Positions 15,809-26,502 of a stretch of 43,557 nt of DNA are shown here, piece after piece. The position numbers and the translations under genes are program-made. Below the pieces are notes generated by a model. The model saw only the letters and a program-made list of their open reading frames with translations. It was not told the origin of the DNA and ran no database searches. The DNA is from Flavobacterium sp. (GTDB taxonomy: Bacteria > Bacteroidota > Bacteroidia > Flavobacteriales > Flavobacteriaceae). Positions within the stretch are counted from its first letter, which is position 1. Each line of letters opens with the position of its first letter. The stretch lies in contig QQUG01000015.1 in assembly GCA_008501705.1 (NCBI GenBank), positions 1 to 43,557 on the forward strand, written 5' to 3'.

Positions 15809-17692
15809 CTATTTAATAACAAATCGTTTGGTGCTTCGCCTGTTGCCAATTGTAATGTCTATAAGATATAATCCGGAATCCAGTCGTGAAACATCAATTG
15901 TATTCTCTCCACTCTCCACATTTCCTGCAAGAAGGCTTCTTCCCTGCAGATCGAATACGGTAAAATTAAGTTCATCTGGTAATTCGTTGTAGACGTGAAG
16001 TATTTCTGAAGTCACTGTGGGATAAATTTTCACTGCAAATTGCAATTCATTCTCATCGAAACCAAGAAGTGCTTCTCTTTCTGCAGGATTTCCCAGTAAG
16101 TATAAGGCGTTATTACCATTATTGGTATTCTTTGTATACTCGTACACCCTAATCGCATAGCGTTTGGTATTGTCCAGCCCTGTAACAGTAACCGCTGTCC
16201 CGGTTCCATTGTACATCACATAGGTGCCGTCACCCAGGTCATCACCACTGCCAAATGCAGCATTGGCGTTATAATCTGTTCCATCAAGCGGGTAGGCACT
16301 AAAATTATAGGGGTCGGTGTTGTTTGTAATATCCTTCATAACCACAACACGGGAAGTACCATTTCCATTGGTCCAGCTTAGGTCCATTGTGGAAATACCA
16401 TCGCCTTGCGCCAGCAAGTTACTGGCATTCACCGTTGGGGCGTCGAGAAGATCGAAGGTAGGAAAACCTGAAGCTCCCGAAATACAATTCCATCCCAATC
16501 CATCCAATGCTGCCCAAAATGCAGGCGCTGTTCCGTCCACTATCCGCTTATTCAATAAGATCGCCCAGGTATATCCACTATTGGATCTAACCCAATAGGT
16601 TGCTGTACCATCCACAGCACCGGAATGCCACCAGTTATTACTGGCATTTACAGCCCATCCTTTAGCGTAATTTGCATTATTTGCCGACGGAGTCACCATA
16701 TTGGTAATGGTCGCAGGCAAAAGTATATCGGGTTTGGTGTTGAATCCGTCTACAGCTACGAGTAGTCTCACCAAATCGCGAGCACTTGCTATCCAGCCTC
16801 CATGGCCGTCCATGGCATTAATCGAGAATCCTCCATATTCCCAGGGAACCAGGTTACCACTTCCATAAAGATCCAGGGTTGTGAATCCGTTCCCCACATA
16901 TTCGCCTTCGCGTTCTCGCTTGTCCTCAAGTAAATTCTCACCAATATACATATCGTATATCCCCAGAGGATGCAAGATCTCATCCTGCATATACGCTTCA
17001 TAGGATTTACCCGAAACTTCTTCTATGATCTCACTTAGTATAAGGTATCCCATATTCGAATAGGCATAGGCGGTTCCGGGGGTGAAATTCAGGTTTTTTT
17101 CGAGCAGGTAATTAATAAGGAATTCTTCTTTCACCGGGTTGGGTTGTCCCTGGGTTTGGGTAACATGTAGCGGAACCGCGATGGGGTCACATCCTGAAAA
17201 GAACCATGGATAGGGTGTGGTGGGGTTTGGGAAACAATCAACACTACTATCCCAGCCCGCACTGTGTTCCAGAAGCTGTTGCACGGTTATATCGTAAATG
17301 CGATTATCTATTATTGTACTTCCCGAAAAATACCAGTGATTCTCCAGCAGACCGCCCGGGCCAAACACCTTATCGGCAAGTGCAATATCACCATCTTCGA
17401 TCATCTTCATAATTCCTATACTGGTAATGGGTTTCGAAACACTTGCAATTCTGAACATATGATACGGCTGAGTAGGTTCAGTCGCACTGATATCGGCATT
17501 TCCGAAGGATCTCATATATTTTAGCTCTCCGTCTTTTGCAAGCGCAAAAGTTAAGCCGGGTATATTATAGCTGGACATGAAATTTTGTACCTGTGTATCA
17601 CAACTACTCATTTGTGGAACGGGTATTCCGTTTTGAGCAATGCTGCAGATTCCTAATAGTAACACTGTTGCATATGATAATAGTCGTTTCAT
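15809..17692 (-). CDS. Serine hydrolase (class C beta-lactamase/DD-peptidase fold) with T9SS type A C-terminal sorting domain
   Basis: SVSK (SxxK), YSN (YxN) and HSG motifs; C-terminal LNFTVFDLQGRSLLAG...LDSGLYLIDITIGNRRSTKRFVIK sorting domain; signal peptide. Confidence 0.9.
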   Translation of the reverse strand: MKRLLSYATVLLLGICSIAQNGIPVPQMSSCDTQVQNFMSSYNIPGLTFALAKDGELKYMRSFGNADISATEPTQPYHMFRIASVSKPITSIGIMKMIEDGDIALADKVFGPGGLLENHWYFSGSTIIDNRIYDITVQQLLEHSAGWDSSVDCFPNPTTPYPWFFSGCDPIAVPLHVTQTQGQPNPVKEEFLINYLLEKNLNFTPGTAYAYSNMGYLILSEIIEEVSGKSYEAYMQDEILHPLGIYDMYIGENLLEDKREREGEYVGNGFTTLDLYGSGNLVPWEYGGFSINAMDGHGGWIASARDLVRLLVAVDGFNTKPDILLPATITNMVTPSANNANYAKGWAVNASNNWWHSGAVDGTATYWVRSNSGYTWAILLNKRIVDGTAPAFWAALDGLGWNCISGASGFPTFDLLDAPTVNASNLLAQGDGISTMDLSWTNGNGTSRVVVMKDITNNTDPYNFSAYPLDGTDYNANAAFGSGDDLGDGTYVMYNGTGTAVTVTGLDNTKRYAIRVYEYTKNTNNGNNALYLLGNPAEREALLGFDENELQFAVKIYPTVTSEILHVYNELPDELNFTVFDLQGRSLLAGNVESGENTIDVSRLDSGLYLIDITIGNRRSTKRFVIK

Positions 17693-17721
17693 AATGTAAT
17701 AGAATTAAGGTTAGTACCATT

Positions 17722-17748
17722 ACATCGCAGTAGAACGAAATTGTCATC
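17722..17748 (-). promoter_or_regulatory. Putative ECF-type promoter for the serine hydrolase gene
   Basis: Minus strand GATGACA-N14-CGATGT, same as three other sites in the locus. Confidence 0.65.
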
Positions 17749-17771
17749 ATTTAAAAATTTTACAGGGCAAT

Positions 17772-17798
17772 GATGACAAATTTTTCTTTATACGATGT
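17772..17798 (+). promoter_or_regulatory. Putative ECF-type promoter for the sigma/anti-sigma/CHAT operon
   Basis: GATGACA-AATTTTTCTTTATA-CGATGT, 80 nt before the sigma factor start. Confidence 0.7.
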
Positions 17799-17878
17799 GA
17801 GGGTGAATGGCGCTGTTATATTGATTTCAGTAAAAATCTGAATGAAAAAAAATTGTATCTTTTCCCTATCTACATACC

Positions 17879-18454
17879 ATGGGGAATGACAATCTAATAG
17901 CGGCGCAATTGCATCTGGCAGAGGCTGTGAAGAACAATGATGAATTAGTTCTGAAACAGTTGTATCAGGAATGTTATGGTAAAATCGAAGTACATATTTT
18001 GAAGAATAACGGCACCAGGCCCCAGGCAAAGGACACTTACCAGGAAGCATTTATAGCGACCTGGCAAAATGTGAAAAGCGGAAAATTCGTGCCTGCTAAC
18101 GAAACTGCTTTACAAGGTTATTTGTACAGGATCGCAAAAAATAAATGGACGGATTATTTGAGATCTTCGCAATTTAAGAAGACTTCTGCGATGCGGGAAG
18201 GTTATGAAATTCCGGACGAGTTCGACGAATCGAATACCGATAATATACAACAACTCAATACCGCAATGGAAGCCTTTCAGAAGCTAGGTAATGAATGTAA
18301 GCAACTGTTAACCTATTTTTATTTTGAGAAAAAATCGATGCGGGAAATTGCTATGGCATTCGAAATTGGCGAAGCCTCCGCACGCAATAAAAAATATCGT
18401 TGTATCAGCAAATTAAGAGAATTAGCCAAAACCCCAATTATAAAAAATGAATAA
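17879..18454 (+). CDS. ECF-type RNA polymerase sigma factor
   Basis: Sigma region 2 (YQEAFIATWQNVKSGKF...LYRIAKNKWTDYLR) and region 4 (LLTYFYFEKKSMREIAMAFEIGEASARNKKYRCISKLRE). Confidence 0.9.
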   Translation: MGNDNLIAAQLHLAEAVKNNDELVLKQLYQECYGKIEVHILKNNGTRPQAKDTYQEAFIATWQNVKSGKFVPANETALQGYLYRIAKNKWTDYLRSSQFKKTSAMREGYEIPDEFDESNTDNIQQLNTAMEAFQKLGNECKQLLTYFYFEKKSMREIAMAFEIGEASARNKKYRCISKLRELAKTPIIKNE

Positions 18455-19184
18455 TTCAGAAAACATATCACAGGAACGTATTGAACGTATAGAGCTGTAC
18501 CTCGAAGGTAAAATGAGCGAGGATGAAAGATCTCGTTTCGAGTCTGAACTGAACACAGATCCCCAATTGGCCGCGCAGCTGGATGAGCTGCGAATTTTAA
18601 TTCTTGGCGTAGAAACAGCCGCTCTAAAAGATAAAATGGAGGACTTTCACGCAGATCTATCTCCAGTGAAAACTATCACTTCTAGTGGCGGAAAGGGAAG
18701 CACAGCACTCTGGCGATGGTCTGTAGCTGCCATTCTCATTGTGGCCCTGGGAGTTTTCTGGATGCTAAAAAGCGATAATCATTACGAACAGCTATACGCC
18801 AAACATTTTAGTCCGGATCCCGGCTTGCCAACTACCATGAGCGCTACTGCTAATTACGAGTTTTATGAGGGCATGGTAAATTATAAACAAGGGGATTACA
18901 AAACCGCGCTTGTCAAGTGGGAGTCTATAGAGGAGAATACCATGGGCATGGATACGCTACAATATTTCCGTGGCGTTGCTTATCTGGCAGATGGCGATAC
19001 GGAAAACAGTATTAAATATCTTCAACCTCTATGGAATACAGAGGATAATAGTTTTTCTAATGAAACGGCTCATTACCTGGGCCTGGCCTATTTAAAAAAC
19101 GGCGACATTGAAGAAGCCATAAATTATCTTACCTTTAGTAATGAAGAAAGTGCGAAGGAAATACTTTCTGAAATCAAAGACTAA
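18447..19184 (+). CDS. Single-TM anti-sigma-like protein with C-terminal TPR-like repeats
   Basis: Overlaps the sigma gene by 8 bp; short cytosolic N-terminus (ERIELYLEGKMSEDERSRFESEL), TM (WSVAAILIVALGVFWML), TPR-like tail. Confidence 0.75.
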   Translation: MNNSENISQERIERIELYLEGKMSEDERSRFESELNTDPQLAAQLDELRILILGVETAALKDKMEDFHADLSPVKTITSSGGKGSTALWRWSVAAILIVALGVFWMLKSDNHYEQLYAKHFSPDPGLPTTMSATANYEFYEGMVNYKQGDYKTALVKWESIEENTMGMDTLQYFRGVAYLADGDTENSIKYLQPLWNTEDNSFSNETAHYLGLAYLKNGDIEEAINYLTFSNEESAKEILSEIKD

Positions 19185-19194
19185 CTAACTTTAA

Positions 19195-22100
19195 ATGAAA
19201 CTAATACCCGGCAAGTATTTTGGGGTTTTGCTACTGCTGTGTATTTTCGGAATTTTTGAATTGCATTCGCAATCCGAAAAGACTACCTGGCAGCAGACTG
19301 TTGATGCCTATATTGAATCTAATCAGCCAAAAAAGGCAGATTCGGTTCTGCAGAAACAGCAGGAGATTTTCCTTCAGGCCGGACAACTGGATTCTCTTTA
19401 TCAGTTTCCCGGAAAAATCGGGCGTATTGCCAAATTACAATACGATGCCAAAACCGCAGCCGCCAAAGCGGAAGCATTTATACGTTTTCTAAAAACCAAA
19501 ACCGACAACCCCCGTACATTCAGCAAGGCCTACCTGGACATTGATAACCTATATGTATTCCTGGTAGACGACCAAAACGCCCTGAAATCGTCTCTCATAG
19601 CCCTGCAGTATGCTAGAACTATCCCGGATGTAACTTTTGAAGAACTGGGAAAGATCAATTATGCCATTGGCAGTAATTATTACGCTCTTTACGATCTTTC
19701 CAATGCCTTAAAATATTTTAAGTCTTCTGCTTCGGCCTACGAGAGGTCGGAAGCCGTAAAAAAAGAGATCCTGGCCGACGCGTACAACGGCGTAGCCGTT
19801 TCCATGTGGACCCTCAACAAATTAGATAGTGCTCGTATTTATTTCAACAAGGCAATTCGGGCAACAGAGGAAAGTGATCTCACTGGTTTTAACCGAACCT
19901 ATTATATAGTGGCCTTCCAGTTTAATCTGGCTTTGGTGATAGACGCCCAGGGGCAACTTGGTGAAGCCATTGCCATGAAGGAGGAAATTATAAATCAACT
20001 TCAGAAGATCATAGACGAATGCGATGACGACTTCCTGGTAAAGAAATCGAAACGGTTACTGGCCTCGGCAATCGCTAACCTGGCTGCTTTTTACAACGAT
20101 ACGGGTTATCTTACCAAGGCTTATGAGATGCTGCTCTACTCCTACGAAAAAAAGAAAGAGGTTTACGAAATTCACAGTCCGCGCCTGGCCACAGTTCTTA
20201 CACAAATCGCACTGGCTGAATTCGAATTAAAGGAATTTGATAAGAGCATAGCAACGGCTTCCAAGGCGTTGGAGAACTTAAAAAAGTCGCCAAGCGACTA
20301 TCTGTCCGTAGAAGCAGACGTATATGCCATGCTTGGGAAGAGTCATGCTGCCAAAGGCGAAATTGATAAAGCCGACTCTTATTTTAAAACATGTCTAGAT
20401 CTTTACCGAAAGGCCTATCCTGAAGCGTATAGCCAGGAGTTTCTCATTTTTCGAAGGGATTATTCCCAATTCCTGGCCGATAATGGAAAGGCCAAACTGG
20501 CCATCGAAATAGCCCTTGATTCTTACGATTATATTTTGGAGAACGAAGGGGCGGAGAGCTTTTCCACCTTGAAGGAAGTAACCAATCTATCTGAAGTCTA
20601 CTATAAAGCGGCAGATCATGAGAACGCCCTGAAATGGGCCCAAAAAGGCAACGCAATCCTGGATCTGAAACTCAAGGATGCAAAATCCCATATTGACTCG
20701 GTGCAGGTGGAATTCAGACGACCGTTCATTACACTTATGGAAGTACGCTCCCTATACCGCACGAACACATCCAGAGACTCCCTTTTTTTAAAACAGCAGA
20801 TAGAAAAATTGAACAAAGCGGTTGCTTCGCTTGAAAAGCGCAAAACCACAACCTATAGTCCGGAGGATATCAATATCATCCTGGAAGAATACAAAGCACT
20901 CAGTACCGAGTCTAAAAAAATGTATTTCGAGTTATTCGAGCTGAGCGGAAATAAAAAGTACCTGGATAAAACTGTGGCGATCCACGAATCGGGTATCTAT
21001 AACAGGATTAGGACCCAGTTTAATATTAAAAATGATATCGGATTTGGAAGCCTGCCCGATTCGATACTAAAAAAGGAAAATGAACTAAAAATGTCCATTT
21101 CCAACTCTTTATCCGGGGAAGGCTCTAACAGGCTGGACAACTATTTCAGTGCTTCCGAAAACTGGCGTTCCTTTCTGGATACCTTAAAGCAGAAATACCC
21201 TAAATACTATGCGTTGCGGTATGCAACTATTGAAGAGGACCTTGGGAATATTCAGCAAAGAATACCGGAAAACACCACGGTTGTACGCTATTTTTTCATA
21301 GAAAACGACCTCTTTGTTTTTATTCTGAATAAGAATCTCCGGGAAATACTTGCTTTGGATTATGACCACCTTAGTGAACACATTCTAAACCTTGCCGAAG
21401 ACCAGTCGGATCTGGAACGAACCTCAACTTCAATTGCCGTACTTTACGACAAACTCTGGCGACCTATTGAAGATCTGGTATCTACCCGAAAGGTAATTAT
21501 CATTCCCGATAGGGATTTGTTCAATTTGAGTTTTGAAACGCTTTCACCTGTTAAGATCACCGACTTTAAACAACTTGCCACCCAAAGTTTACTGTCTAAA
21601 AAAGTGATTTCATATAGTTATAGCTTGTTCATACTTAAACAACCGGCACCTACCTATGTATATCCAAAGAATTTCGTGGCTTTTGCACCCGAGTTCAATG
21701 AAGACATGAAGCTGGAATACAGATTTTCCATTACAGATTCGCTCGATATCGATAAAACCTATATCAAGTTACTTCCACAGCCTTTCAGCAAAGAGCTGGT
21801 GAAGAAATATGCAAACATATTCGATGGAGAGTCCTACCTGAATAAAAATTCTACCAAAGAGGTTTTTAAATTGAACGCCAGGGAACACAAGATCATTCAT
21901 ATTGGGACACACGCAGAGTCGAACAATATTACCCCGGAATTCTCCAGGTTAATCTTTGCCAAGGACGTAGCCCAAATAGAGAACCGTGAAGATAACTCCC
22001 TGTTCACTTACGAGATCTACGACTATAATGTAGCCTCCAACCTAACTATCCTTACCGCTTGTGAAACAGGGAAACCCACCTTCGAACCCGGCGAAGGTAT

Positions 22101-22446
22101 GATCTCACTGGCCCATGCCTTTAATTATGCAGGGAGTGAAAGTATACTTACCAGTTTGTGGAAGATAGACGAAAAATCCAGTAATGAGATCCTTGGATAT
22201 TTCTACGACAATCTAAAGGACGGTATGGCCAAAGACGAAGCACTGCGGCAGGCCAAACTTAGTTATCTGGCAGTTGCCAAAGGCCGGACTATCGCTCCGC
22301 AGTATTGGTCCGGACTGGTGCTGATGGGAGATACGGCACCATTGGAGCTTCATTCCGAATTTCCGTTCTGGCCATGGTTCCTGGGAGGTTTGGTGATACT
22401 GGCAGTATTGCTTTTCGTTTTCAGGGAAAAAGATCCTGCAAAGTAA
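19195..22446 (+). CDS. TPR-CHAT (caspase-like) protein with signal peptide and C-terminal TM anchor
   Basis: Multiple TPR-like repeats; CHAT motifs HIGTHAES (His) and LTACETGKPTFEPGEGMISLAHAFNYAGSESILTSLWKIDE (Cys); C-terminal FLGGLVILAVLLFVF. Confidence 0.9.
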   Translation: MKLIPGKYFGVLLLLCIFGIFELHSQSEKTTWQQTVDAYIESNQPKKADSVLQKQQEIFLQAGQLDSLYQFPGKIGRIAKLQYDAKTAAAKAEAFIRFLKTKTDNPRTFSKAYLDIDNLYVFLVDDQNALKSSLIALQYARTIPDVTFEELGKINYAIGSNYYALYDLSNALKYFKSSASAYERSEAVKKEILADAYNGVAVSMWTLNKLDSARIYFNKAIRATEESDLTGFNRTYYIVAFQFNLALVIDAQGQLGEAIAMKEEIINQLQKIIDECDDDFLVKKSKRLLASAIANLAAFYNDTGYLTKAYEMLLYSYEKKKEVYEIHSPRLATVLTQIALAEFELKEFDKSIATASKALENLKKSPSDYLSVEADVYAMLGKSHAAKGEIDKADSYFKTCLDLYRKAYPEAYSQEFLIFRRDYSQFLADNGKAKLAIEIALDSYDYILENEGAESFSTLKEVTNLSEVYYKAADHENALKWAQKGNAILDLKLKDAKSHIDSVQVEFRRPFITLMEVRSLYRTNTSRDSLFLKQQIEKLNKAVASLEKRKTTTYSPEDINIILEEYKALSTESKKMYFELFELSGNKKYLDKTVAIHESGIYNRIRTQFNIKNDIGFGSLPDSILKKENELKMSISNSLSGEGSNRLDNYFSASENWRSFLDTLKQKYPKYYALRYATIEEDLGNIQQRIPENTTVVRYFFIENDLFVFILNKNLREILALDYDHLSEHILNLAEDQSDLERTSTSIAVLYDKLWRPIEDLVSTRKVIIIPDRDLFNLSFETLSPVKITDFKQLATQSLLSKKVISYSYSLFILKQPAPTYVYPKNFVAFAPEFNEDMKLEYRFSITDSLDIDKTYIKLLPQPFSKELVKKYANIFDGESYLNKNSTKEVFKLNAREHKIIHIGTHAESNNITPEFSRLIFAKDVAQIENREDNSLFTYEIYDYNVASNLTILTACETGKPTFEPGEGMISLAHAFNYAGSESILTSLWKIDEKSSNEILGYFYDNLKDGMAKDEALRQAKLSYLAVAKGRTIAPQYWSGLVLMGDTAPLELHSEFPFWPWFLGGLVILAVLLFVFREKDPAK

Positions 22447-22461
22447 GACCTTCCAGTTTTC

Positions 22462-22488
22462 GATGACATTTCGATAGTTAGCCGATGT
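22462..22488 (+). promoter_or_regulatory. Putative ECF-type promoter for the transglutaminase-like gene
   Basis: GATGACA-TTTCGATAGTTAGC-CGATGT, 31 nt before the start codon at 22520. Confidence 0.65.
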
Positions 22489-22519: not shown

Positions 22520-24151
22520 ATGAAAAAACTACTAATTCCTTTAAGCCTATTTTTTGTAGGTACCGTACTATTTGCACTTAGTTTTCTGAGTTTCGGTAGT
22601 GCTTCCGGAGATCTCGACATTTCCATAGTGAAGTCTAATTCGATCATGCCCGCCGCGCATAATGTATATGCGAACGAGTTGGCACTGGACGGAAAATACT
22701 ATCTCTTTAAGGCTAAAATGACCAATAATGGAGACAATACCCTTGAAGATGTGACCGTGCGTTATAGGATTCCAGGCTATGTTGAATGGACAGAATTGGA
22801 CGTAATAGGTGAAATGTTTCCCGGACAGACCGCATCGGTGCGCTGCTATCCGAAATTCAAGGATGATATTTCAGAAAAAATGACCGAATCCACAGAGAAA
22901 GTAGAAATCGAAATTTCCTGGGATGGAGCCCAGGAAGACGATATCATCGATGAGGAATTTAGTTTCAGGATCTCAGACAGGAATGAATATCTCTTTACCA
23001 ATATTCCGGCCGAAGAGATCGCCGGTTGGGGAGATGTATATAACAACGACGCCTTGTTGGCCTGCTTTGTTACTCCAAACGATCCCATAGTAAAATACTA
23101 TACCCAGAATATACAAGAGAAAATACTAATGGGGGAAACAGCTTCGGTCACTAAAGACCCTAATGAAGCCGTACGCTTCCTTGCCGGGATCTACAACGCC
23201 ACGGTACTTTCTCATATGGTGTATAGCGGAACCAAAGGTATCCCGGAAACATTACAGGACGTATCAAAATTTTCGCAGCATAACAGACTTCCAAGGGAAG
23301 TGATCACCGGGAACACGGGGCTCTGTCTCGAATTGAGTTTGCTTTATGCCAGTATACTATCCAACGCAGGCTTGGACCCGATGATATTTCTTGTGCCGGG
23401 ACATGCTTACCCGGGCTTCCGTCTCAACGGACAATATTACGCCATAGAATCTACCGGGATAGGTGGTGAAGGGATTGGGAGTATTATGAGTACCGAAGAA
23501 GCCTTCAAGAAAGGAATGGAGCAGCTAAACCAATTTATGCAAAAGGCGCAAACAGGTGATCCCAGATACACAGTGGTAGATATTCATGCAGTAAACCAGC
23601 AGGGAGTTACGCCCATGGTTCTTAAAGACGACGATTTCCTAAGAAAAAAAGTAGACGACATTGTAAGTTCCTGGGGTGGTTCCGGAGCCTTAGCAAAGGC
23701 AAGTAATGATACCCGTGTTGTTAACACCGGAAATACTGGATCGAACAATTCGGGAGGTGGAAGCTCGGGTGGCTCTGCCCTATCCTTCTCGATCCCCGGC
23801 GGCTGGCAAACATTTATGCGTCCTGTGCCGGAAATACCGATAATTACAGCACAGGTTGTTGCCCCGGACCAATCCACCACAGTTACCGTATTCGATGTAC
23901 CCGCATCCAGCGGTCAGGAGGCCCTGGGAATAATTAACCAGTATTTTCAAAATTATGGAATGTCCATGCAATACCAGCTGAATGGCAATCAGGTTTCCGG
24001 ACAAACATTTTCTAATAGCGGAGTATTTAATTGGGTAGGTAAAACCTTAGGTCGAAACGGAGGGATCCGTGTGGTGGCTGTAGGTGCACCCGATTATCTG
24101 TACAACCAGAGTTCGGGCTACATAACCCAGGTTTTTAATAGTATTCGTTAA
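22520..24151 (+). CDS. Transglutaminase-like cysteine peptidase domain protein, exported
   Basis: NTGLCLELSLLYASILSNAGLDPMIFLVPGHAYPGFRLNGQYYAIESTG shows a Cys...His...acid arrangement; N-terminal signal/TM. Confidence 0.75.
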   Translation: MKKLLIPLSLFFVGTVLFALSFLSFGSASGDLDISIVKSNSIMPAAHNVYANELALDGKYYLFKAKMTNNGDNTLEDVTVRYRIPGYVEWTELDVIGEMFPGQTASVRCYPKFKDDISEKMTESTEKVEIEISWDGAQEDDIIDEEFSFRISDRNEYLFTNIPAEEIAGWGDVYNNDALLACFVTPNDPIVKYYTQNIQEKILMGETASVTKDPNEAVRFLAGIYNATVLSHMVYSGTKGIPETLQDVSKFSQHNRLPREVITGNTGLCLELSLLYASILSNAGLDPMIFLVPGHAYPGFRLNGQYYAIESTGIGGEGIGSIMSTEEAFKKGMEQLNQFMQKAQTGDPRYTVVDIHAVNQQGVTPMVLKDDDFLRKKVDDIVSSWGGSGALAKASNDTRVVNTGNTGSNNSGGGSSGGSALSFSIPGGWQTFMRPVPEIPIITAQVVAPDQSTTVTVFDVPASSGQEALGIINQYFQNYGMSMQYQLNGNQVSGQTFSNSGVFNWVGKTLGRNGGIRVVAVGAPDYLYNQSSGYITQVFNSIR

Positions 24152-24795: not shown

Positions 24796-24838
24796 CAACC
24801 GCTTTTTACCCAAAACCCAAAGACATGGAAAATTTATC

Positions 24839-24865
24839 GATGACATTTTCCATGTCTTTCGATGT
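24839..24865 (+). promoter_or_regulatory. Putative ECF-type promoter for the S74 fibre-like gene
   Basis: GATGACA-TTTTCCATGTCTTT-CGATGT, 80 nt before the start codon at 24946. Confidence 0.65.
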
Positions 24866-24945
24866 TAATGTACCGGGGGTCTCTATTTCGATCACCCTTT
24901 CCCTGAATCTATTTGAACTTTCCCGTGCTCATAAATTATATAGAT

Positions 24946-26502
24946 ATGAAAAAAATCATTCTTTTGTTTATGGTTTCAACCGGTTTAGTCGCCCAGGTTG
25001 GAATCGGCACTGTAACCCCCGATGCTTCGTCTGCATTGGAGATCGAAAGTACTTCGGCGGGAATATTAATTCCCAGGATGACCGAAGCTCAGAGAACCGC
25101 CATTGGTTCTCCTGCAACAGGATTACTGGTTTACCAAACAAATAATACAGCCGGATTCTGGTATTACTCCGGTTCCGGTTGGGCCGCACTGGGAAGTTCG
25201 TCCTCATGGGAGCTTACCGGTAACGCAGGCACCAACCCTTCAACAAATTTTATTGGAACAACGGATGACGTGGATTTAAAATTTAGAAGAAATAATCTCG
25301 AAGTGGGCGATATCACAAATTACAATATTGCTTTTGGCGAATCCTCCTTTGTCAATCCGGTAAACGCTTTTTATAACGTCGCCATAGGAAATAACGCCAT
25401 GGAGAATATTACAGGGGCAGATGGAAATGTGGCCATCGGATGGAATGCACTTCAGGCAAATACAAGCTCCGCTGCTTTGGTCGCCATTGGAAATGGAGCA
25501 CTCGCCAATAATACCGAAGAAAACAATGTAGCTATCGGATCGGGATCAATGAGTGCCAATACAGTTGGAACTAATAATACTGCTGTCGGAACCGGAAGTT
25601 TACAATCTAATATTAATGGAAATGCTAACATTTCGATCGGGTATTACTCGCTTTACAATAATGTTGACGGTGGTGCGAATTGCGCTCTGGGTTTTTATGC
25701 TTTGAGAGACAATTCATCCGGAATTTACAACTCTGCTTTTGGAAATCAATCTTTGCAGTTTAATACCACCGGAAATTACAATACCGCGCTCGGCTCATTT
25801 TCACAACAACAAAATGTCACAGGCATTGAGAATACCTCTGTAGGAACCTATTCCCTTCGAAATATAACATCCGGGAATAGAAATACCTCTGTGGGTTATA
25901 GTTCCAGCGGAGGAAATGGAAGTGATAGTTTTAATACCGCTTTAGGAGCTTATGCTGTCACTAATGCGGGATATTCCAACGCCACAGCCATTGGGTACGC
26001 AACAACGGTTTCTTCAGATAATACGGTGAGAATTGGCAACAACTCAGTCACTTCAATTGGAGGCTACACCAACTGGAGCAATATAAGTGATGGTCGCTTT
26101 AAAACCAATGTCAGAGAAGATGTAGTAGGTCTCGAATTCATCCTTAAACTTCGTCCCGTCACATATCGCTTAGATATGGATGCTATCGCCAGATTTAATA
26201 GATTACCCGATAGCCTTCGATTGAATCAGGCTGAACAACTAAAATCGAAAGAAATTCAGAGTGGGTTTATTGCTCAGGAAGTAGAACAAGCCGCCATCTC
26301 TTCTAATTACAATTTTCACGGCGTTGAAAAACCCAATGATGATAATTCACATTACGGCTTGCGCTATGCAGAATTTGTAGTACCGATTGTGAAGGCCTTA
26401 CAGGAGCAACAACAAATAATTAATGATCAGAACAAGAAGATCGAGACACTAGAATTACAATTATTAGATCTGAAGGCCATGATACAGGCTAAGTTGAATT
26501 AG
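24946..26502 (+). CDS. Exported fibre-like protein with YadA-head-like repeats and C-terminal peptidase S74/intramolecular chaperone domain
   Basis: Start MKKIILLFMVSTGLVAQVGIGT; many NVAIGxxAL/NTAVGTGSL repeats; ISDGRFKTNVREDVVGLEFILKLRPVTYRLD S74 motif; C-terminal coiled coil. Confidence 0.85.
   Translation: MKKIILLFMVSTGLVAQVGIGTVTPDASSALEIESTSAGILIPRMTEAQRTAIGSPATGLLVYQTNNTAGFWYYSGSGWAALGSSSSWELTGNAGTNPSTNFIGTTDDVDLKFRRNNLEVGDITNYNIAFGESSFVNPVNAFYNVAIGNNAMENITGADGNVAIGWNALQANTSSAALVAIGNGALANNTEENNVAIGSGSMSANTVGTNNTAVGTGSLQSNINGNANISIGYYSLYNNVDGGANCALGFYALRDNSSGIYNSAFGNQSLQFNTTGNYNTALGSFSQQQNVTGIENTSVGTYSLRNITSGNRNTSVGYSSSGGNGSDSFNTALGAYAVTNAGYSNATAIGYATTVSSDNTVRIGNNSVTSIGGYTNWSNISDGRFKTNVREDVVGLEFILKLRPVTYRLDMDAIARFNRLPDSLRLNQAEQLKSKEIQSGFIAQEVEQAAISSNYNFHGVEKPNDDNSHYGLRYAEFVVPIVKALQEQQQIINDQNKKIETLELQLLDLKAMIQAKLN

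Follow-up and report, generated by a model that had tools for sequence, protein, structure and literature searches.

The boxes classically associated with ECF sigma factors are AAC at -35 and CGT at -10, although later classifications no longer require them (PMC8103513). In Flavobacterium, the housekeeping sigma factor uses a -7 box with the consensus TAnnTTTG (PMC9723704). An RpoE protein also features in the type III-E CRISPR Craspase, in which a CHAT protease cuts Csx30, a protein that binds RpoE (PMC9729208). Here we describe a stretch of 43,557 nucleotides of Flavobacterium sp. DNA (the window) that carries an inverted repeat in the intergenic region between a serine hydrolase gene and an ECF sigma gene. 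In all likelihood, judging from sequence comparison, the repeat consists of back-to-back promoters for the adjacent ECF sigma factor, driving the hydrolase gene and the sigma operon, with two further copies in the same gene cluster. The locus resembles the autoregulated ECF sigma/anti-sigma operons (PMC8103513) in its two-domain sigma factor, short linker and neighbouring membrane protein, a candidate anti-sigma factor, and in a motif placed before its own operon and a few targets.

The repeat is built from two divergent copies of TGATGACA-N14-CGATGT (Table 1). A preliminary description had reported outer arms ACATCG (17722-17727) and CGATGT (17793-17798), inner arms TTGTCATCATT (17741-17751) and AATGATGACAA (17769-17779), a common centre at 17760 for both pairs and GATGACA blocks 23 bp apart, and a check against the sequence reproduced each of these. 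A repeat search returned a single 36-nt imperfect inverted repeat (17716-17751/17769-17804) with 72% complementarity, and the intergenic region gave no hit in a plasmid search. Shuffling the 186-bp intergenic region 1,500 times with dinucleotide composition preserved yielded exact arms of 11 bp or more 9 times, and never an 11-bp arm accompanied by another of 6 bp sharing its centre. Conservation is narrower than the full arms: the closest relative, L001, lacks the outer AA of AATGATGACAA and differs in the spacer while keeping TGATGACA and CGATGT intact, and in an alignment of six loci it is TGATGACA and CGAT that remain complete on either side.

Across 200 Flavobacteriaceae genomes from 200 genera, the pattern TGATGACAW-N13-CGATR tracks the presence of the sigma gene. 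With sigma orthologues defined by a cut-off of our own choice (E below 1e-35), the motif was present in 23 of 25 sigma-positive and 13 of 175 sigma-negative genomes (Fisher p = 6.9e-19), giving 76 and 14 sites, respectively, and the reversed pattern, used as a control, gave 11 sites in all 200 genomes. In sigma-positive genomes, 38 of the 76 sites are no more than 20 kb away from the sigma gene, where 0.9 would be expected. The 13 sigma-negative genomes with matches mostly hold single sites, and 5 of the 10 examined sites fall inside coding frames, compared with 1 of 19 in sigma-positive genomes. One such genome, G156, encodes a more distant sigma homologue (E 6e-32). Among the sigma-positive exceptions, the spacer of the G027 box, which lies 0.2 kb before the sigma gene, is one base longer (15-bp spacing), and in G122, which encodes the sigma factor, the motif was not found. 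The exceptions to sigma linkage are therefore explained in part, by the G027 spacing, the G156 homologue and the coding-frame sites.

A matrix built from 75 sites outside the window has the consensus TGATGACAWTTT-N10-CGATR, in which the invariance of the core arises partly by construction, the sites having been chosen by a regular expression. The matrix also favours an A about 9 nt after CGAT, a position compatible with a transcription start. When the window is scored with it, the four motif sites rank first to fourth, with a clear drop to the fifth, and the best-scoring of them, with no window site in the matrix, is the fourth copy (24838). In place of the classical AAC and CGT boxes, the 75 aligned sites carry GACA and CGAT, and, as for other ECF sigma factors, a shared motif stands upstream of both the sigma factor's own operon and its targets. 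In the organism's own genome (3.08 Mb, 97.6% complete), searched with up to three mismatches, there are two exact and two one-mismatch sites, and all four lie in this gene cluster, each 30-80 bp ahead of a gene; chance would be expected to supply about 1 site with one mismatch or none, and 0.02 exact sites. Sites with two or more mismatches are scattered. The hydrolase box is 30 bp from the start codon of its gene, with transcription predicted to start near 17715, and the sigma-operon box lies about 80 bp ahead of the start codon of the sigma gene, with a predicted transcription start near 17805; a box is present upstream of 11 sigma genes. The third copy lies 32 bp upstream of ORF 22520 and is also found before the orthologous gene in L040, L149 and L162, and related genes of ORF 24913 are likewise preceded by sites in L006, L143 and L147.

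Table 1. Features of the locus, with examples of the promoter box inside sigma genes of relatives; coordinates are window positions unless a locus is named
Feature	Position	Strand	Basis or remark
Serine hydrolase, beta-lactamase family, signal peptide, T9SS type A sorting tail	15809-17692	-	PF00144; Pfam/NCBIfam
Predicted ECF promoter of serine hydrolase gene	17722-17749	-	Exact match, TGATGACA (-35) N14 CGATGT (-10)
Predicted autoregulatory ECF promoter of sigma/anti-sigma/CHAT operon	17771-17798	+	Exact match, TGATGACA N14 CGATGT
Candidate housekeeping sigma-A -7 box TGTATCTTTT	17854-17863	+	Fits TAnnTTT; just before sigma gene
ECF sigma factor, 191 aa	17879-18454	+	PF04542, PF07638, TIGR02937
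Membrane protein, anti-sigma-like N-terminus, one predicted TM helix, TPR C-terminus	18447-19184	+	NF052375, TPR matches
Exported TPR-CHAT protein, signal peptide, CHAT domain, C-terminal TM helix	19195-22446	+	PF12770, 7.8e-36
Third motif copy CGATGACA N14 CGATGT	22461-22488	+	One mismatch; upstream of ORF 22520
Predicted exported/membrane protein, transglutaminase-like by weak match; putative regulon member	22520-24151	+	
Fourth motif copy CGATGACA N14 CGATGT	24838-24865	+	One mismatch; before ORF 24913
Predicted exported protein, repetitive beta-fibre-like body; putative regulon member	24913-26502	+	Motif upstream
Embedded-box examples	L012:6348-6375; L028:6287-6314; L040:6296-6323; L150:10086-10113		23 other sigma genes in addition

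Six loci have a divergent hydrolase/sigma pair with a box for each gene, separated by TGATGACA-to-TGATGACA gaps of 21 bp in the window, 22 bp in L001, 89 bp in L007, 15 bp in L144, 10 bp in L145 and 72 bp in L147, and the hydrolase-side box precedes the hydrolase gene in each of the five relatives; further divergent box pairs occur in L039, L042 and L152. Within each arm the spacing is essentially fixed, and many other genes have a lone copy about 30 bp ahead of them. An inter-box distance that ranges from 10 to 89 bp argues that the arms are two independent ECF promoters and that the palindrome is incidental and no operator. A symmetric operator for a dimeric transcription factor, which the exact 11-bp arms, their common centre and the strong hairpin or dyad symmetry would favour, is highly unlikely: the arm distance varies without helical phasing, single arms are common, the outermost arm bases are lost in L001 and the sigma gene is the only regulator gene seen in the cluster. 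The folding of 17715-17800 (-22 kcal/mol, z -4.9) would also suit an RNA hairpin or a bidirectional terminator, to which we give next to no probability because the genes diverge here, so that the repeat lies outside both predicted transcripts, and because relatives have arms up to 89 bp apart and, commonly, single arms without a partner. Both the operator and the hairpin were dropped on account of the variable arm distance.

It is also very unlikely that each TGATGACA-N14-CGAT unit is a tandem activator site, with a GATG direct repeat about two turns apart, and no promoter at all. GATG is indeed present in both halves, and a dimer on direct repeats would suit the fixed spacing equally well, but the sites lie about 30 bp ahead of start codons, in the place that the promoter has to occupy, the -10 element retains CGAT only (33 of the 75 sites have A in place of G as the fifth base), and the motif co-occurs with an ECF sigma gene in a cluster that has no other visible regulator. 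Reading of the promoters by a different ECF sigma factor of the same genome has a similarly small chance. The genome does encode at least one further distant homologue, a second ECF sigma factor with 35% identity (G000:C159:1032-1529), but it is the sigma factor of the window that the motif tracks over 200 genera, and the sites cluster at its gene. Co-occurrence, clustering, fixed in-arm spacing and variable inter-arm distance thus support the earlier proposal of two divergent promoters for one sigma factor, as far as sequence comparison can. The variable gaps and single copies indicate that symmetry as such is not the device; a coupling of enzyme and sigma expression would run through the shared sigma factor and not through the palindrome.

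The sigma factor has domains 2 and 4 only, joined by a linker of fewer than 50 residues, with Pfam matches to region 2 and to ECF families, and is related to SigL/RpoE structures; the stretch from LRS to LG..C is 39 residues long in the window and mostly 39-45 in relatives. An anti-sigma-like TPR protein is encoded directly after it in 61 of 65 loci and a TPR-CHAT gene lies downstream in 65 of 65, making the order sigma, anti-sigma-like, CHAT nearly universal. The match of the anti-sigma-like protein to NF052375 (1e-5) is below the curated cut-off. The CHAT domain carries the catalytic His and Cys that Craspase-type CHAT/sigma signalling would call for, a dyad kept in 62/62 and 61/62 relatives, respectively, within the conserved motifs HIGTHA and TACETG, and a PDB search with this protein matched TPR stretches only, with no match for the CHAT domain. 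The topology of the window's CHAT protein was read from sequence, and the roles proposed for it and for the TPR protein are putative assignments from weak family matches and this topology. The TPR-CHAT protein (19195-22446) may be a periplasmic protease acting on the anti-sigma factor. Of 62 sigma genes, 48, that of the window among them, have a TAnnTTT box in the 80 bp ahead of the gene, which suggests basal expression from the housekeeping sigma factor together with feedback from the ECF box.

Beyond the sigma operon, the predicted targets are almost all exported proteins by their sequence features. In a crude test for an N-terminal hydrophobic signal, 67 of 73 non-sigma targets scored positive, and of the six that failed, five resemble signal peptides by eye; among other ORFs, 155 of 460 scored positive. 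The targets comprise, among others, the hydrolase and a subtilase, both T9SS-tailed, along with other T9SS cargo and lipoproteins. Two predicted lipoprotein families recur behind the motif (21 and 20 members; L012:2045-2800, L003:382-1566 and relatives), and no Pfam match was found for the two representatives of each that were scanned. In the window, ORF 22520-24151 weakly matches NF058533 over residues 167-306, far below the cut-off of that family, and it has a faint likeness to residues 103-241 of the model of the anti-phage protein ProA (6e-17, also far below cut-off). PADLOC gave no match for the cluster proteins, which hence carry no defence label. ORF 24913-26502 had no match in a family search, and its true start is probably an internal methionine (MKKIILLF).

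In 27 of 62 relatives a promoter box lies within the sigma coding sequence itself, where 0.41 would be expected in total from synonymous codon shuffles, although relatedness makes these 27 genes non-independent. The embedded box sits in the linker joining regions 2 and 4, some 190 bp ahead of the anti-sigma-like gene. It occurs in two reading frames, one of the DDILKDKRL type (Winogradskyella and others) and another in L150 and in the Dokdonia loci L028 and L040; conservation of the protein is therefore not enough by itself to explain it. Only 1 of the 62 sigma genes has both an internal and an upstream box (hypergeometric p 0.01, kinship ignored), and no internal box was found in the window's own sigma gene.

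We infer that the sigma factor recognizes the motif, that the repeat is active both ways, that the operon is autoregulated and that the membrane protein is the cognate anti-sigma factor. The promoter code would be a -35 element TGATGACATTT and a 14-bp gap from TGATGACA to a -10 element CGATR. The leftward arm would drive the T9SS-secreted serine hydrolase, the rightward arm the sigma/anti-sigma/TPR-CHAT operon, as positive feedback, and the two further copies two more exported proteins. The trigger would be an envelope signal, which the exported TPR-CHAT protein would sense and which would free the sigma factor from its membrane anti-sigma, possibly through cleavage of the latter in the periplasm, a step proposed by analogy with Craspase. 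The freed sigma factor would then fire both arms and the two downstream promoters, raising the hydrolase and its own operon, and the housekeeping box before its gene would supply basal sigma. With 21 bp between the -35 boxes, two polymerases may, speculatively, compete. A broader and rather doubtful extension is a widespread module for envelope signalling in flavobacteria: an exported TPR-CHAT protease would free an ECF sigma factor by cutting a membrane anti-sigma, and some members of the lineage would have the autoregulatory promoter relocated to within the sigma gene. If so, induction from the internal promoter would raise the anti-sigma and CHAT genes and not sigma, turning positive feedback into damping, and relatives with embedded and upstream boxes offer a natural comparison of two feedback designs in one system.

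In many marine flavobacteria the sigma factor appears to govern a limited group of exported proteins, and is thereby linked to exported enzymes, lipoproteins and a CHAT protein. These results provide a concrete predicted promoter code, with a list of putative targets, for an ECF sigma factor common to many marine Flavobacteriaceae, and the circuit is testable. Our literature search returned nothing on point for the motif or for an ECF factor with CHAT; the 2021 ECF reclassification paper lay outside that search, and the sigma group may be numbered there. Neither a gRAMP CRISPR effector nor Csx30 was found among the examined neighbouring genes of the window. The likeness to Craspase (PMC9729208) lies in a CHAT protein, an RpoE-like sigma factor and a third protein encoded together, but here the CHAT protein has a signal peptide and a TM helix and is thus predicted to be periplasmic, and the anti-sigma cleavage is putative. 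SM6 of Flavobacterium psychrophilum (PMC9723704), from the same family, likewise has ECF-type promoters and a tie to T9SS; SM6, however, has a CGT -10 box and T9SS machinery genes, whereas this locus has CGAT and cargo or lipoprotein genes. Compared with the autoregulated ECF operons (PMC8103513), the locus differs in its GACA/CGAT core, in TPR-CHAT as third operon gene and in the in-gene box of many relatives. The promoter pair fits this known autoregulated kind with non-classical boxes, and the CHAT-linked regulon and gene-embedded promoters are its interesting part.
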